A stretch of 32,263 nucleotides of DNA from Bacteroidota bacterium (GTDB lineage: Bacteria > Bacteroidota > Bacteroidia > Chitinophagales > Chitinophagaceae), in NCBI GenBank assembly GCA_024640225.1, contig JAHEFK010000014.1:23259-55521 (forward strand), read 5' to 3'. The notes under the pieces were generated by a model. It was not told the DNA's origin. It did no database searches and saw nothing but the letters and a program-made list of their open reading frames with translations. Positions within the stretch are counted from its first letter, which is position 1; the number at the start of each line of letters is the position of its first letter. Below are positions 8,304 through 24,957 of the stretch, piece by piece. A program made the position numbers and the translations under genes.

Positions 8304-9557
8304 ATGAAAAAGAAAGCAATAAGTAGAACTAAAAAACTATTACAGTTTATAGGGCCCGGATTAGTTACCGGAGCTAGCGATGATGACCCTTCTGGTATTG
8401 CCACCTATTCTCAAGCAGGAGCAGCCTATGGTCTTGCTACTTTATGGACCTCCATAGTAGCCTTTCCTTTAATGGCTGGCATTCAGCAAATGTGCGCTAA
8501 AATTGGTATTGTAACGAATAATGGCCTAACGGGTACATTAAAAAAATACTATCCGAAATATATTCTTTACATCATGCTATTGTTTAGCTTTCCAGCTATT
8601 ATCATGAATATTGGAGCCGATATTGCCGGCATGGGAGCAGTAGGCAATTTGCTTTTCCCAGCCATAGATGCCAATTATTTTAGTGTCTTTTTTACCTTAC
8701 TCATGCTTGGATTAATCATTTATTTGCCTTACCACAAAATGGCATCCATTTTAAAGTACTTATGTATTGTAATGCTCGTATATTTTATAGTACCCTTTTT
8801 GTATCATCAAGATTTTAAAGCTATTTTCAAAGCAACCTTCATACCCAAAATTGAATTTAATAAAGATTTTATTGGCATCTTGGTGGGCATTCTAGGTACA
8901 ACCATCTCACCCTATTTGTTTTTTTGGCAAGCATCCGTGGAAGTGGAAGAACGAAAAAATAATTTAAAGCTAGTTGTCAACAAGAAGATTGTACAAGCAA
9001 TGGAAAAAGATGTTGATTTTGGTATGGGTTTTTCAGGCTTTGTCATGTATTTTATCATTCTTACTACCGGCACCGTTTTATACAATAACGGCATGCATGA
9101 AATCAACACGGTGCAAGATGCGGCTAATGCACTTAAACCACTTGCTGGAAATTTAGCCTATCTCCTTTTTTCCATTGGTGTTATTGGCACCGGTTTGATC
9201 GCCATACCTGTTTTGTGCGGTTCTCTTTCCTATATATTCACCGAAACATTTGGTTGGAATCAAGGGCTAGATAAAAAATTCCATGAAGCAAGAGCATTCT
9301 ATATAATCATTGCCATTTCTTTATTGTTGGGTTTATCCATGAATTATATAGGCTTGTCGCCCATTAAAGCATTGCTCTACACAGCTATACTTTACGGCTT
9401 AACAGCACCCGTTTTAATTGCTATTATTTTACACATTTCTAATAATAAAAAAATCATGGGCAAGTTTGTAAATACTTTGAAACTGAATATCCTCGGATTT
9501 CTGGCTTTTATAATTATGTCTATAGCAGCTATTGCCTTAATTTATCTTCAATTCTAA
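8304..9557 (+). CDS. NRAMP/SLC11-like divalent metal transporter, atypical metal site
   Basis: 417 residues from the ATG at 8304 (an in-frame GTG six bases earlier is possible). The family is recognised from LLQFIGPGLVTGASDDDPSGIATYSQAG in the first helix (residues about 13-40) and the overall 11-helix pattern. Canonical NRAMP proteins have DPGN in helix 1 and A-x-x-M-P-H in helix 6, where Asp, Asn and Met bind Mn2+/Fe2+. Here helix 1 has DPSG (28-31) and helix 6 has GTTISPY (198-204), so the Asn and Met positions become Gly and Ser. This resembles, from memory, the NRAMP-related Mg2+ transporter (NRMT) branch, so the substrate may be Mg2+ rather than Mn2+. That is inference. The gene stands alone between two terminators, with a possible operator upstream. 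Confidence 0.85.
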   Translation: MKKKAISRTKKLLQFIGPGLVTGASDDDPSGIATYSQAGAAYGLATLWTSIVAFPLMAGIQQMCAKIGIVTNNGLTGTLKKYYPKYILYIMLLFSFPAIIMNIGADIAGMGAVGNLLFPAIDANYFSVFFTLLMLGLIIYLPYHKMASILKYLCIVMLVYFIVPFLYHQDFKAIFKATFIPKIEFNKDFIGILVGILGTTISPYLFFWQASVEVEERKNNLKLVVNKKIVQAMEKDVDFGMGFSGFVMYFIILTTGTVLYNNGMHEINTVQDAANALKPLAGNLAYLLFSIGVIGTGLIAIPVLCGSLSYIFTETFGWNQGLDKKFHEARAFYIIIAISLLLGLSMNYIGLSPIKALLYTAILYGLTAPVLIAIILHISNNKKIMGKFVNTLKLNILGFLAFIIMSIAAIALIYLQF

Positions 9558-9558
9558 A

Positions 9559-9592
9559 AAAAAATCCCGACTGTAAGCAGTCGGGATTTTTT
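9559..9592. terminator. Bidirectional terminator between the NRAMP-like and DksA-like genes
   Basis: Stem TCCCGACTG / CAGTCGGGA around TAAG, with flanking A6 and T6 runs. It serves both convergent genes. Confidence 0.93.
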
Positions 9593-9607: not shown

Positions 9608-10915
9608 TTATTTTTTCATGCTATTTTTAGCTTCAATGCTAAGTGTAGCATGAGGTACTGCTCTCAATCTTGCCTTGTCAATTAATAAACCCGTAACACG
9701 ACAAATACCGTAGGTTTTATTTTCAATGCGAATAAGTGCTTTTTCTAAATTAGAAATAAATTGAATTTGACGACTAGCCATTTGTGATAAATTTTCGCGC
9801 TCCATAGCATTGCTTCCATCATCTACCGACATTCTATTTTCAGTATCTTCTGTACCACTCTCATCTTTACGCGTAATAAGGCCATTCAAGAAAGTTAATT
9901 CTTTTCTAGACAATTCAAGACGATTCAAAATCAATTCTTTAAATTCTGCTAATTCTTCATCGCTATATTTAAAGGTTTGCTTTGGCTCTTCTGCTGGCAT
10001 ATCTAAAATAGATCGAGTGAATTCTTCTTTGATCGTTTTTGACACCTTTTCTACTTCTGCTTTTGTTTCCTTTTGTTTTCTATGCGCTACAATAATACTT
10101 GGCTTATCTTCCATTTTCAAGCGAACCGTTGGTGTTGGAGCTGGCTTTGGCAATGGAGCTGATGAAGATTTTTTAATAGGCAATTTAGCTTTTTCAGCTG
10201 CGCTAAGTACTTTTACAGGAGGAGCAACGGGTTTCACCGGCTTTTTAGATTCTTTAGCCTTTGGTACCTCTTTTACTTTTACTTCCGGTTTAGCAACTGG
10301 TTTTACTACTTTAGGTGCTACTTTAGGGGCAACCTTTACTGGAGCCTTCACCACTTTCTTAGGTGCTGCTTTTTTAGCTACCTTCACTGGTGCTTTAGCA
10401 ACTTTTTTAGGAGCAACTTTTTTAGGAGCAACTTTTTTAGGAGCAACTTTTTTAACAGGAGCTTTCACGACTTTTTTAGGAGCCGCTTTTTTTACCACCT
10501 TTTTTACAGGAGCTTTCACAACTTTTTTAGGGGCTACTTTTTTAACCACCTTTACAGGTGCTTTAACTACTTTTTTAGGAGCTGCCTTTTTAACTACCTT
10601 TTTAACGGGTGCTTTGACTACTTTTTTAGGAGCCGCCTTTTTAACTATTTTTGCAGGTGCTTTTTTAGCTGCTTTAGGTGCAACTTTAGCATTTGATTTT
10701 TTACTCACAGGTTTGCTATTTTTTTTAACGACCACCTTTTTAGATGGACTTGCTTTTTTCTTATTTGCTACAACTGATGATGAAGATTTAGTAGCCTTTT
10801 TAACTACTACTTTTTTCGCAACTACTTTTTTCGCAGGTGCCTTACTTGCCTTAGCATTTACAGATTTCTTTTTAACAGCAACTTTGTTTGCAGTTTTTTT
10901 AATTTGTTTAGCCAT
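9608..10915 (-). CDS. DksA/TraR-family protein with long histone-H1-like basic tail
   Basis: 435 residues in three parts. Residues 1-230 are almost entirely Lys, Ala, Val and Pro, with five near-copies of a 14-17 residue unit of the form KKAAPKKVVKAPVK (about 92-197). Residues 231-314 are a mixed linker. Residues 315-435 are a DksA/TraR domain with a coiled coil (DEELAEFKELILNRLELSRK) and a C-terminal globule (YGICRVTGLLIDKARLRAVPHATLSIEAK). DksA binds RNA polymerase in the secondary channel. Here only one of four zinc-finger cysteines remains (C405). The E. coli tip motif DPVDRA appears as DDGSNA (365-370), so the second Asp is Ser. The basic tail suggests DNA or RNA binding, as in H1-like or AlgP-like proteins. 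The ATG is 7 nt after the ileS stop; ileS-dksA(-lspA) is an order I recall in this phylum, but lspA is absent here. Confidence 0.85.
   Translation of the reverse strand: MAKQIKKTANKVAVKKKSVNAKASKAPAKKVVAKKVVVKKATKSSSSVVANKKKASPSKKVVVKKNSKPVSKKSNAKVAPKAAKKAPAKIVKKAAPKKVVKAPVKKVVKKAAPKKVVKAPVKVVKKVAPKKVVKAPVKKVVKKAAPKKVVKAPVKKVAPKKVAPKKVAPKKVAKAPVKVAKKAAPKKVVKAPVKVAPKVAPKVVKPVAKPEVKVKEVPKAKESKKPVKPVAPPVKVLSAAEKAKLPIKKSSSAPLPKPAPTPTVRLKMEDKPSIIVAHRKQKETKAEVEKVSKTIKEEFTRSILDMPAEEPKQTFKYSDEELAEFKELILNRLELSRKELTFLNGLITRKDESGTEDTENRMSVDDGSNAMERENLSQMASRQIQFISNLEKALIRIENKTYGICRVTGLLIDKARLRAVPHATLSIEAKNSMKK
10325..10642 (-). repeat. In-frame Lys/Pro/Ala repeat region of the DksA-like gene
   Basis: Encodes residues about 92-197. 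There are five imperfect units coding KK(A/V)APKKVVKAPVK, spaced about 14-17 codons apart, one of them interrupted by a shorter 15-bp tandem. Because all units are multiples of three bases, unit gain or loss would alter tail length without frameshift. Confidence 0.85.
10398..10455 (-). repeat. 15-bp tandem repeat (codes KVAPK)
   Basis: The plus-strand unit GCAACTTTTTTAGGA starts at 10398, 10413 and 10428 with a fourth partial copy at 10443. It is a near-perfect direct tandem inside the basic tail and a probable site of replication slippage. Confidence 0.9.
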
Positions 10916-10922
10916 TGATTGG

Positions 10923-13900
10923 TTAATTTTTAGAAATTAATACAGTATACGTAATTTCATTCACCTCTATAGCAATTCCTTCTTGTAAGTCAGTTACAGT
11001 CTCAATATCATCAGATAGAATTTCGGCGCAAATATAATCATTAAATTGGTTTATTGCAGCATTTATTTTTTCATCTGTCTTTATCTTAACGTTAATTCGA
11101 TCCGTTAATTCAAAGTTACTATCCTTTCTAATTTTTTGAATTCGGTTCACTAATTCGCGAGCAATTCCTTCTCTTTCTAGATCTGGAGTAATCGTTAGAT
11201 CTAAAGCAGCCGTTAAAGTACCCTTGCTTGCCACAGACCAACCTGGAATATCATCAATAATCAATTCTACATCATTTAAAGATATATCAATCAATTGATT
11301 ATCTAATGTTATTTGAATTGATGCATTACGTTCTAGCTCTAAAATTTGCTCTTGCGTGAAGTTGGTAATTAATGCCGCAACCGCTTTCATTTGTGAGCCC
11401 AATTTTGCACCTAATGATTTAAAGTTTGGCTTTAATTTCTTTTTAATAAAACCATCATTATCAATTAAATACTCTATTTCTTTTATATTCACCTCATTGA
11501 TAATAATAGGGGCTACTAACTCTAATTGTTGTTGCATAGTTGCATTTAGAATTGGTATCAAAATTTTCTGTAAGGGTTGTCGAACTTTTATAGCAATCTT
11601 CTTTCTTATAGATAAAACTAGGGAAGAAATTTCTTGTGCCATTAGCATTCGTTCCTCCAAAGCAGTATCAATAATTTGTACTTTAGCGGCAGGATAGTTG
11701 GCCAAATGCACCGAAGCATGCCCCAATTTATTGGTCACATTATTTAAATTATGATACATCCAATCTGCAAAAAATGGCGAAATCGGAGCTATAAGCAAAC
11801 TCAAGGTCTCTAAACATTCGTATAAAGTTTGATACGCCGCTATCTTATCTTGCTCATATTCTCCTTTCCAAAAGCGTCTTCTACACAAACGAACATACCA
11901 ATTACTCAATTGCTCGTCTAGGAAGGTTTCAATAGCTCTACCCGCTTGCGTAGGCTCATAGTTATCTAAACTTTCCGTTACTTGTTTAATGAGTGATTGT
12001 AAAGCAGAAATAATCCATCTATCCAATTCTGGACGCTCTGCTACAGGAATATATGCTTCTTGGAAGCTAAACCCATCTACATTAGCGTATAAAGCAAAGA
12101 ATTGATAGGTATTGTATAAGGTTCCAAAGAACTTTCGTTGCACTTCATGAATGCCTTCTTCATCAAATTTTAAACTATCCCAAGGTGCTGCATTCGTAAT
12201 TAAATACCAACGAGTGGCATCGGCACTGTATTTTTCAATTGTTTTGAATGGATCAACTACATTGCCTAGGCGTTTGCTCATTTTATTACCCGACTTATCG
12301 AGCACTAAACCATTAGAAACGACTGTTTTGTAGGCAACCGTATCAAAAAGCATCACAGAAAGCGCATGGAGGGTATAAAACCAACCACGTGTTTGATCTA
12401 CCCCTTCGGCAATAAAATCTGCCGGGAAGGCACTATGTTGTTCTATTTTATCTTTATTTTCAAAAGGATAATGCCATTGTGCATAAGGCATAGCACCCGA
12501 ATCAAACCAAACATCAATTAAATCTGGCTCTCTTCGCATTGCTTTTCCGCTAGGGGAAACTAAAACCCATTCATCCACAAAAGGTTTATGTAAATCAATA
12601 GCTTCTTGTGTAACAACTTGCTGTAAACCTAATTGAGCATTTGCCTTTTCAATTTCTGATTGTAACTCTTCAATACTTCCAATGCAAATACGTTCGTCGC
12701 CCTCTTCAGTTGCCCAAATTGGCAATGGAGTACCCCAATATCTACTGCGCGATAAGTTCCAATCCACCATATTCTCCAACCAATTACCAAATCTTCCTTC
12801 ACCCGTAGCCTTAGGTTTCCAATTGATTGTTTTATTTAATTCAATCATTCGGTCTTTAACAGCGGTCGTTCTTATAAACCATGCATCTAATGGATAATAT
12901 ATGATAGGCTTATCCGTGCGCCAACAATGCGGATAGGTATGCTCATACTTTTCAACTTTAAATGCTTTTCCATCTAATTTTAATTGCACGGCAATATCTA
13001 CATCAATATCCTTGTAGTCTGCATCATCTTTATAGTTTTTCACAAATCGAGCACTCCATGGGCCAAGGCCATCAATGAATTTACCCTCTCTGTCTACCAT
13101 CACTAATATTCCGATATTATTTTTGGCGCCCACTTTATAGTCATCGGCTCCAAAAGCAGGTGCAGTATGCACAATTCCTGTTCCATCTTCTGTAGTAACA
13201 AAATCACCAACTATAACTCTGAAGGGATCGCCACCAGCTACTTCTTTTGCATTGGCTTCAAAGGGCATTAATTGATGATAACGAATACCTTCCAATTCTT
13301 TACCTTTATAGCTTGCAATTATTTCCCATGGCTGTGCTTTTTCATTTTCATTTACAATAGCAAAATCTACTCCTTTAAATTCATCTTTAAAGAATTTGCT
13401 GAGTAAAGCAGTTGCTAATACTACATGAATTGGAGCCTTGGTATAGGGATTTATGGATTTAACCAAACTATATTCAATAGCACCGCCCACGGTCAATCCA
13501 CAATTAGACGGCAATGTCCACGGTGTAGTAGTCCAAGCTAAGAAATGAATCTTTTCTTGATTGCTTTTAGCAAATAAGTTTGCAGAAGCTGCGTCTTGAA
13601 TAGCTTCAAACATAGCTACCACTGTAGTATCTTTTACATCTTTATAGGTTCCTGGTTGATTTAGTTCATGTGAACTTAAACCGGTGCCAGCAGCAGGCGA
13701 ATAAGGCTGAATGCTTACACTTTTGTATAAATAATCTTTTTTATAAAGCTCTTTAAGCGCCCACCAAAGCGTTTCAATATAATTATTGTCGAAGGTGATA
13801 TAAGGATCTGATAAATCTACCCAATAGCCCATCTGCTCGGTAATGCCATCCCATTTGTCTTTGTAGCGCATCACCACTTCACGGCATTTTTTATTATAAT

Positions 13901-14249
13901 CTGCTACACTGATGGTTTTACCAATATCCTCTTTCGTAATGCCTAATTCCTTTTCTACGCCCAACTCTACCGGTAAGCCATGTGTATCCCAGCCAGCTTT
14001 ACGATTCACCTCAAAACCCTGCATGGTTTTATATCTACAAATTAAATCTTTCAGCGTTCTAGAAATAACGTGGTGTATGCCCGGCAAACCATTAGCACTT
14101 GGTGGGCCTTCAAAAAACACAAAAGGCACAGAGCCACTTCTTTGCGTTATGCTTTTTTTAAAGGTGTCTGAGGATTTCCAATATGCTAAAAATTCCTGCT
14201 CTATAGCAGGCATTTGTAATTGTTTGTATTCTGTGTACTTTTGTGACAT
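10923..14249 (-). CDS. ileS: Isoleucyl-tRNA synthetase, type-2-like with GIHH signature
   Basis: Charges tRNA-Ile with isoleucine and edits misactivated valine. It has 1108 residues, the length of the long (eukaryote-like, type 2) form. Visible parts are the Rossmann entry FFEGPPSANGLPGIHH (47-60) and GWDTHGLPVE, the editing-domain segment LAWTTTPWTLPSNCGL, DGTGIVHTAPAFGADDY, the WFDSGAMPYAQWHYPF region, KMSKR at 656-660, the anticodon domain (LSNWYVRLCRRRFWKG) and a long C-terminal extension. The class-I HxGH signature is replaced by GIHH at 57-60, that is, the first and third residues are exchanged; the codons GGC ATA CAC CAC are clear. It is the first gene of an operon with the DksA-like gene. 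Type-2 IleRS usually gives natural mupirocin resistance. Confidence 0.97.
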   Translation of the reverse strand: MSQKYTEYKQLQMPAIEQEFLAYWKSSDTFKKSITQRSGSVPFVFFEGPPSANGLPGIHHVISRTLKDLICRYKTMQGFEVNRKAGWDTHGLPVELGVEKELGITKEDIGKTISVADYNKKCREVVMRYKDKWDGITEQMGYWVDLSDPYITFDNNYIETLWWALKELYKKDYLYKSVSIQPYSPAAGTGLSSHELNQPGTYKDVKDTTVVAMFEAIQDAASANLFAKSNQEKIHFLAWTTTPWTLPSNCGLTVGGAIEYSLVKSINPYTKAPIHVVLATALLSKFFKDEFKGVDFAIVNENEKAQPWEIIASYKGKELEGIRYHQLMPFEANAKEVAGGDPFRVIVGDFVTTEDGTGIVHTAPAFGADDYKVGAKNNIGILVMVDREGKFIDGLGPWSARFVKNYKDDADYKDIDVDIAVQLKLDGKAFKVEKYEHTYPHCWRTDKPIIYYPLDAWFIRTTAVKDRMIELNKTINWKPKATGEGRFGNWLENMVDWNLSRSRYWGTPLPIWATEEGDERICIGSIEELQSEIEKANAQLGLQQVVTQEAIDLHKPFVDEWVLVSPSGKAMRREPDLIDVWFDSGAMPYAQWHYPFENKDKIEQHSAFPADFIAEGVDQTRGWFYTLHALSVMLFDTVAYKTVVSNGLVLDKSGNKMSKRLGNVVDPFKTIEKYSADATRWYLITNAAPWDSLKFDEEGIHEVQRKFFGTLYNTYQFFALYANVDGFSFQEAYIPVAERPELDRWIISALQSLIKQVTESLDNYEPTQAGRAIETFLDEQLSNWYVRLCRRRFWKGEYEQDKIAAYQTLYECLETLSLLIAPISPFFADWMYHNLNNVTNKLGHASVHLANYPAAKVQIIDTALEERMLMAQEISSLVLSIRKKIAIKVRQPLQKILIPILNATMQQQLELVAPIIINEVNIKEIEYLIDNDGFIKKKLKPNFKSLGAKLGSQMKAVAALITNFTQEQILELERNASIQITLDNQLIDISLNDVELIIDDIPGWSVASKGTLTAALDLTITPDLEREGIARELVNRIQKIRKDSNFELTDRINVKIKTDEKINAAINQFNDYICAEILSDDIETVTDLQEGIAIEVNEITYTVLISKN

Positions 14250-24540: not shown

Positions 24541-24957
24541 TTAAAAATCATCATCATCATCATCATCAAAACCACCTTCGTTGAAAAAACCTAGATCTTT
24601 GAAATCATCGTCATCGTCGTCTTTTGAAGATTTTTTTGGACCAGATTTAGACTTAGATTTTGGCAATTCAAATTCCTCAAAATCTTTATCGATATCATAA
24701 TCATCTACATCATCAAAATCATCATCATCATCATCTTCCATATCATCATCAAAATCATCATCATCTATATCGTCATCTTCTTCAATTTTCTTTGTTGTTT
24801 TTTTGGTTGCTTTTACGGCAGCTTTTTTTGCAGGCTTAATTTCTTCTTCCTCTTCATCCTCAACCGTTTTTTTCTTTGCCGCTTTCTTAACGGGAGCATC
24901 TTTTTTTACTACCGCTGCTTTTTTAGTCGTGCTTTTTTTACTAGGTGTAGTCTTCAT
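24541..24957 (-). CDS. Block-charged (Lys-rich / Asp-rich) low-complexity protein
   Basis: 138 residues with almost no hydrophobic core. The charge alternates in blocks: Lys/Ala-rich 1-31, acidic 33-39, Lys-rich 41-57, strongly acidic 58-97 (mostly Asp), basic 98-112 (KSKSKSGPKKSSK) and acidic 113-138. The acidic end has two aromatic-glycine breaks (GFFNEGGF) and finishes in Phe. It should be intrinsically disordered. I do not recognise a function. Possible roles are a nucleic-acid chaperone-like or RNA-polymerase-associated acidic protein similar in character to RpoE/delta of Firmicutes, but that is only analogy. It lies between purA and pabB on the same strand, 76 nt after purA and with zero gap to pabB. 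Codon use is ordinary AT-rich. Confidence 0.8.
   Translation of the reverse strand: MKTTPSKKSTTKKAAVVKKDAPVKKAAKKKTVEDEEEEEIKPAKKAAVKATKKTTKKIEEDDDIDDDDFDDDMEDDDDDDFDDVDDYDIDKDFEEFELPKSKSKSGPKKSSKDDDDDDFKDLGFFNEGGFDDDDDDDF
24547..24567 (-). repeat. (ATC)7 trinucleotide run
   Basis: Seven perfect ATC triplets on the plus strand encode the Asp run next to the C-terminal Phe of the charged protein. Length change would stay in frame. Further ATC/GTC clusters lie at about 24606-24621 and 24717-24776. Confidence 0.9.

Follow-up and report, generated by a model that had tools for sequence, protein, structure and literature searches.

What would a histone-H1-like polycation do at the front of a DksA-like transcription factor? 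The question is raised by a single gene in the window, the 32,263-nucleotide stretch of Chitinophagaceae DNA analysed here. DksA and other secondary-channel factors exert their effect on RNA polymerase itself and not via promoter DNA (PMC6970531, in excerpt). Among open-licence full texts, no description of a DksA with a histone-H1-like or lysine-rich tail was found and no study of a DksA-like protein in Bacteroidota; a Bacteroides regulon paper names DksA in its reference list only (PMC12596196, in excerpt). The gene starts with ATG and its 435-residue product falls into three parts, a lysine-rich tail, a linker and a DksA domain (Table 1). It is the only DksA/TraR match found in the genome (1.85 Mb, 96.5% complete, 43 contigs). 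An earlier note on this DNA had described the protein as two-part; the tail and the C-terminal domain were recovered as it had them, whereas the 85-residue linker between the two, which has conserved motifs of its own and is not repeat-like, had been overlooked.

Table 1. Positions of the features discussed, in window coordinates
Feature	Position	Strand	Basis
Whole gene, tailed DksA-like protein (435 aa)	9608..10915	-	ORF list; sole DksA/TraR match in the genome
Residues 1-230, Lys/Ala/Val/Pro repeat tail	10226..10915	-	Repeats, composition, charge
Residues 231-315, linker, non-repeat	9971..10225	-	Slower codon change than tail
Linker motif IIVAHRK, residues 274-280	10076..10096	-	Loose pattern [IV]A[HY][RK]
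Linker motif EFTRSILD, residues 298-305	10001..10024	-	Form taken in the window gene by the family motif YxPEFTRSILD
DksA/TraR domain (residues 316-435): pair of long helices, globular part with one Cys	9611..9970	-	PF01258, AlphaFold2, Foldseek, VIA-align
Asp365-Asp366, predicted coiled-coil tip	9818..9823	-	Model; acidic in aligned sequences
ileS, isoleucyl-tRNA synthetase	10923..14249	-	ORF positions; Pfam tRNA-synt_1
Palindrome CCCGACTG-TAAG-CAGTCGGG, flanking A and T runs	9556..9592	.	Read directly

The C-terminal domain was recognized by Pfam PF01258 (29.7 bits; cut-off 24.9). All NCBIfam matches stayed under their cut-offs, the best being yteA (45.7 of 134.4 bits); the DksA equivalogs reached 41.0 of 105 bits (DksA_like, NF033459) and 40.0 of 115.5 bits (dksA, TIGR02420). 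An AlphaFold2 model of residues 236–435, built on a 102-row alignment, predicts the coiled coil, globular part and C-terminal helix of the DksA fold (pTM 0.55), with helices at 84–117, 131–163 and 192–199 in the numbering of the model. Mean pLDDT, taken by tens of residues, was 86–96 over most of the helices and lower in the tip loop (58–76; 111–130), the last 20 residues (67–78) and the linker (54–75). At E ≤ 0.001 Foldseek returned five matches, all of them DksA structures (4ijj_A, 1tjl, 4ijj_B, 5vsw and 7khi). VIA-align, which limits the comparison to Foldseek-ranked chains, gave Z = 13.0 to 4ijj, 12.9 to 1tjl and 10.2 to the Chlamydia protein, the best non-DksA row having Z = 8.6; unrelated coiled coils reach Z of about 8 in such comparisons, and long helices below about 13, a value near which the DksA rows lie, may share a mere common arrangement. 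The reading of the protein as a DksA-fold domain joined to an H1- or AlgP-like polycation is thus supported by profile, predicted fold and composition (see below).

The closest solved fold is DksA2 of Pseudomonas aeruginosa (4ijj; Foldseek E = 2.9e-05, VIA Z = 13.0 over 117 residues). Both are zinc-less, DksA2 keeping two Cys and the Chitinophagaceae domain one; the solved DksA2 chain has 129–130 residues and no such tail, and DksA2 is described, in excerpt, as a second paralogue made under zinc starvation, whereas the window genome yielded a single DksA. With its two Cys and no zinc bound, DksA2 is functional (PMC9213440, in excerpt). The E. coli protein (1tjl, 5vsw, 7khi) shares the coiled coil, the globular part, the C-terminal helix and the equivalents of R91 and K139. 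It is distant in sequence (22–23% identity in the structural matches) and differs from the domain studied here, which keeps one Cys of four, has His or Asn for K98 and Val for R129, carries the added tail and, over the aligned ranges, is longer (126 model residues to 119), for which a longer tip loop is the simplest explanation. The best sequence match among solved structures is DksA of Chlamydia trachomatis (6ptg, E = 7.9e-14), a 132-residue chain with no such tail, for which the VIA alignment covered 81 residues. Of the four zinc-finger Cys only the first is kept, as the earlier note had it, and the same holds for 102 of 102 aligned Bacteroidota sequences. The degenerate zinc finger is therefore general in the protein of this phylum, in agreement with the earlier note; the four-Cys arrangement for binding zinc is absent, and judged from the aligned residues the domain has lost its zinc ligands.

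The tip of the coiled coil was a different matter. The earlier note had equated DPVDRA with DDGSNA, which puts Ser368 at E. coli D74, and had concluded that the second catalytic-type Asp is lost. This outcome depends on the alignment chosen. An ungapped count back from the shared Cys places Asp365 at D74. The structural alignment (118 of the 119 E. coli residues 26–144) most simply places Asp365 or Asp366 there, on the assumption of a one-residue shift within the second helix. One profile alignment (A1) gives Asp366, and the other (A2), which opens a four-residue gap, gives residue 369, one off the proposed 368. Position 365 is acidic (D or E) in 102/102 aligned sequences and 366 in 101/102; 368 is acidic in none of the 102, and 369 is Asp in 12, as counted from the commonest letters listed. 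In the model the second helix begins at Asp366, beside the low-confidence tip loop. Loss of the tip Asp is thus not supported, three of these four results putting an Asp of position 365 or 366 at D74. In E. coli DksA, D74 is very well conserved and essential (PMC6488371, in excerpt).

Contacts with ppGpp appear to have changed. According to the excerpts of PMC7676912, ppGpp at site 2 is contacted by residues K98 and R129 of the E. coli protein, and Ala substitutions at these positions abolish the site and leave RNA polymerase binding intact; R91 and K139 are named there as well. The R91 equivalent is Arg in 101/102 sequences and that of K139 is Lys in all 102. At the K98 position we found His in 64, Asn in 29, Lys in 3 and other residues in 6, and the R129 position is Val in 101/102, so that the K98/R129 pair is not kept across the aligned sequences of the phylum. 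Since tail-less aligned sequences share these changes, any altered site-2 control would be independent of the tail. On the partner's side, the beta' rim-helix residues N680 and D684 of E. coli have identical counterparts in RpoC of the window genome, which has one Rel match and one GreA/GreB match. Judged from these residues, the domain probably still uses the secondary channel, with altered ppGpp control.

The tail was characterized by composition, charge and repeats. Residues 1–315 (tail and linker) consist of 31% K, 0% R (rounded down), 19% V, 15% A and 11% P, and have a net charge of +87. The best 100-residue segment has a net charge of +40, whereas +12 is the next highest value for the 20 ORFs of the window that start with ATG and have 150 aa or more; a charge of +40 is therefore far from chance. 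Tandem repeats with periods of 15, 24–27, 48–51 and 99 were found in the tail DNA, and the peptide contains APKKVVKAPVK five times and APKK eight times. In composition and repeats it is thus a long Lys/Ala/Pro-rich repeat of the histone-H1-like kind. S/TPKK motifs are typical of H1 tails; the pattern [ST]P[KR]K occurs 0 times in residues 1–230. From its composition the tail is presumably disordered. Some actinobacterial TraR/DksA proteins may also have Lys/Ala-rich starts. AlgP (AlgR3) and PhaF of Pseudomonas likewise have a long Lys/Ala/Pro repeat of histone-H1-like composition, compared with which the tail studied here is richer in Val. In AlgP, as described in excerpt, the repeat is joined to a helical domain, as the tail is to a domain here; it stands C-terminal, behind a 124-residue helical domain, whereas here it is N-terminal on a DksA domain.

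Several origins of such a sequence were considered. An assembly artefact, raised as a possibility in the earlier note, was rejected because extensions of normal length (183, 164, 182 and 200 aa) occur in four single-contig genomes and because codon changes in the tail are mostly synonymous (see below). Tail lengths in draft genomes are uncertain, given that in two relatives (L066 and L118) an assembly gap falls within the tail. Derivation of the tail from another gene of the window genome was also rejected, as it has no second match there at E ≤ 10. A PHROGs search for a phage origin gave 0 matches at E ≤ 0.1. An antisense plus-strand ORF (9810–10940), opposite the tail and part of the domain, was rejected as a gene, since both the Pfam match and the pattern of synonymous substitution belong to the minus frame. 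Elsewhere in the window, between a purA-like gene (by eye) and a chorismate-binding gene, lies a 138-residue minus-strand ORF (24541–24957) whose short Lys-rich start was not among the tail-search matches listed; the rest of it is strongly Asp/Glu-rich, which makes it a polyampholyte, and it has no Pfam match above cut-off.

In the linker, the loose pattern [IV]A[HY][RK] was matched in 22 of 116 long-extension entries, counting duplicates; among these 22, three are copies of the window gene and one (L048) is a match at a different place. The match starts 39–45 residues ahead of the domain in 20 of these entries, and the (I/V)AHR motif is a feature of the sub-clade of the window gene. A combined motif of the YxPEFTRSILD type was found in 41 of 55 Chitinophagaceae sequences (shuffled control: mean 0.005, maximum 1 in 200 shuffles). 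It misses the other 14, including the window gene, which is without the Tyr-x-Pro part, and a sub-clade with YxPxYTPLEKR; one locus (L054) keeps the linker form of its own sub-clade with almost no tail. A locus titled Phycisphaerales (L139, JASGCP010000074.1) has a linker of Chitinophagaceae type and is probably a misbinned contig.

The domain was then searched across Bacteroidota, as the earlier note had proposed. Of 392 genomes sampled from the phylum, 391 have it, as do 91 of 99 relatives (window genome included), of which the Chitinophagaceae set comprised 60 genomes, 55 with a domain match. In these 55 the extension (tail and linker) has a median of 183 residues and a range of 76 to 368, is at least 15% Lys in 53 and has a net charge of at least 0.1 per residue in 52, the exceptions being L006, L009 and L054, the last with a weakly basic extension of 91 residues. 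The shortest extension, 76 residues, is that of a frame-split gene. In L006 (genome G007) a Lys/Thr/Ser/Glu-rich tail and the linker-domain part lie in different frames, joined near a run of nine A (about 1150–1180); sequencing error, slippage or a broken gene could each account for this. Among 29 loci named Chitinophagaceae, 28 are tailed and one (L130, whose open frame starts inside the domain) is unscored; the tail of L118 was scored by hand owing to its assembly gap. Outside the family, 35 of 39 order-mates were scored, 14 as tailed and 21 as tail-less. Among the 150 matches listed for the phylum sample, the 15 from Chitinophagaceae all have open frames of 268–442 aa, and of the 135 others listed, 127 have open frames below 200 aa and 8 of at least 200 aa. 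Those 8 and one of 189 aa were examined: three, all from a family (f28) outside the order of Chitinophagaceae, have a Lys-rich extension of 110–124 residues, and six do not (one of them, L184, has 120 residues from the first ATG, with 5 Lys). The concern that most orthologues would turn out tail-less is thus justified for the matches listed outside the family and unfounded within it, and the tail belongs to the Chitinophagaceae as a family and not to the window genome alone.

The history of the tail was examined on a quick, single-gene tree of ileS C-terminal sequences (86 rows from 117 long enough; 36 left out for short ileS), with a tail defined as at least 60 residues with a net charge of at least 10. 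At least 10 changes are needed, of which starred branches force 5 or more, compared with about 29 for shuffled labels; gain and loss are indistinguishable on this tree, and the f28 tail is absent from it. It would appear, then, that the tail was gained or lost several times among related lineages. Codons were compared between the window genome and a congener (G002). The domain showed 39 synonymous and 0 nonsynonymous changes in 120 codons, the linker (from residue 236) 21 and 6, and the tail (boundary at residue 235) 61 and 35, with 45 gap columns. Median K/(K+R) was 0.96 in the extension and 0.50 in the domain, higher in the extension in 55/55 Chitinophagaceae, and in these 55 the extension's ratio did not correlate with GC. 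Taken together, the codon counts and the K/(K+R) values indicate fast turnover of the repeats with the lysine character kept.

The gene starts 7 nt after the ileS stop codon. Of 92 loci, among which the window gene accounts for three, 87 have ileS upstream; in another count this was so for 70 of 80. As tail-less relatives keep the same neighbour, this arrangement is uninformative on the tail. On the other side an Nramp-type transporter gene converges on the DksA-like gene, and the palindrome between the two (Table 1) is a possible shared terminator; it was not flagged in a simple terminator scan, whose 5 sites lie elsewhere in the region (mean for shuffled sequence, 3.7). Past the DksA-like gene, three Chitinophagaceae have their next long ORF on the opposite strand, and in two tail-less relatives, L143 (Pedobacter) and L153 (Sphingobacterium), an apparent lspA (by eye) follows it. 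In an uncultured Bacteroidales (L141, RUG470, ONNK01000015.1) ileS and the DksA-like gene form a single open frame of 1296 codons, which is either a real fusion or a sequence error.

We consider the most likely function, with about an even chance of being right, to be that of a regulator acting in the secondary channel, with the tail as its tether to DNA or RNA. The two halves of this proposal differ in strength. A secondary-channel role of the domain at RNA polymerase is well favoured by what the domain retains. If that role is granted, DNA as the anchor of the tail is somewhat favoured over RNA, polyphosphate or nothing at all, by analogy and from composition; tail peptides of AlgP bind DNA (PMC9239181, in excerpt). 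The coiled coil would enter the secondary channel and alter initiation or pausing, as in E. coli DksA. The tail would bind DNA (or nascent RNA) electrostatically and non-specifically, as its composition and the precedent suggest, and may thereby raise the local concentration of the factor at transcribed regions of the nucleoid or lengthen its stay on polymerase. Control by ppGpp at site 2 would be weak or unlike that of E. coli, because K98 is replaced by His or Asn and R129 by Val. Against a tether must be weighed that many Bacteroidota are tail-less and that the extension of L054 is short and weakly basic. A polycation could equally bind rRNA, mRNA or polyphosphate.

Binding to RNA is the first alternative. 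The tail would hold the factor on nascent transcripts or ribosomes, and the DksA domain would then affect elongating or paused polymerase as well as transcription-translation coupling. Polylysine binds any nucleic acid, and the gene closely follows ileS, a translation gene, in most loci. However, the same neighbourhood in tail-less relatives tells against this argument, nothing in the protein is RNA-specific and Pfam shows no RNA-binding domain in it; we regard this explanation as unlikely. The tail may instead be a nearly neutral low-complexity expansion without function, tolerated because it is disordered. The rapid turnover of the repeats between two congeners (gap columns and nonsynonymous changes in the tail, no nonsynonymous change in the domain) and the spread of extension lengths, the lower end being the frame-split gene, are what such an expansion would produce. 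Yet the Lys content is maintained in nearly all Chitinophagaceae orthologues, Lys is preferred to Arg irrespective of GC content, synonymous changes outnumber nonsynonymous ones within the tail itself, and the tail was apparently gained or lost several times, so that lack of function seems distinctly unlikely.

We judge it very unlikely that the tail, by binding polyphosphate or other polyanions, attaches the factor to polyP granules in starving cells, in the manner of AlgP of Pseudomonas. The precedent is a KPAA-repeat tail found on polyP granules and needed for their even spacing (PMC9239181, in excerpt), and the window genome has a polyphosphate kinase gene; this gene is widespread (7 of 14 control genomes) and shows no tie to the DksA-like gene.

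Just as improbable is that the Chitinophagaceae factor doubles as a linker-histone-like nucleoid protein, an H1-like function having moved onto the regulator; if true, chromosome compaction and transcription control would be combined in one molecule. Hc1 (PF07432), a small H1-like family named after Chlamydia and common in Bacteroidota, is a separate short gene, unlike the fused tail. Its profile matched neither the tailed protein (Pfam, E ≤ 1) nor anything in the window genome. Hc1 was found in 247 of 392 genomes of the phylum, but in 0 of the 15 Chitinophagaceae of that sample, and this strong contrast suggested that Hc1 was replaced by the tail. In the relatives set it was found in 1 of 60 Chitinophagaceae and in 8 of all 99 genomes, tailed or not. 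A simple swap of Hc1 for the tail was nevertheless rejected: among order-mates no association was seen (Hc1 in 3 of 14 tailed and 3 of 21 tail-less; Fisher P = 0.66), and the three tailed f28 genomes also have Hc1, which leaves a link between Hc1 and the tail unsupported. That the protein is mainly a nucleoid protein whose DksA domain no longer acts on RNA polymerase would fit a zinc finger left with one ligand of four and the loss of two residues at the ppGpp site, but is highly improbable in view of the domain being the slowest part of the protein, its tip acidity and R91 equivalent being nearly invariant, the same domain standing beside ileS in tail-less relatives and the zinc-less DksA2 of P. 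aeruginosa being functional (PMC9213440, in excerpt).

A regulator tethered by its tail therefore remains our preferred reading. A family-wide polycation, repeatedly gained or lost, on the only DksA of the cell would be a natural tethering experiment. It bears on the stringent response in Bacteroidota, whose DksA-like protein is without the zinc ligands and two of the ppGpp-site residues.
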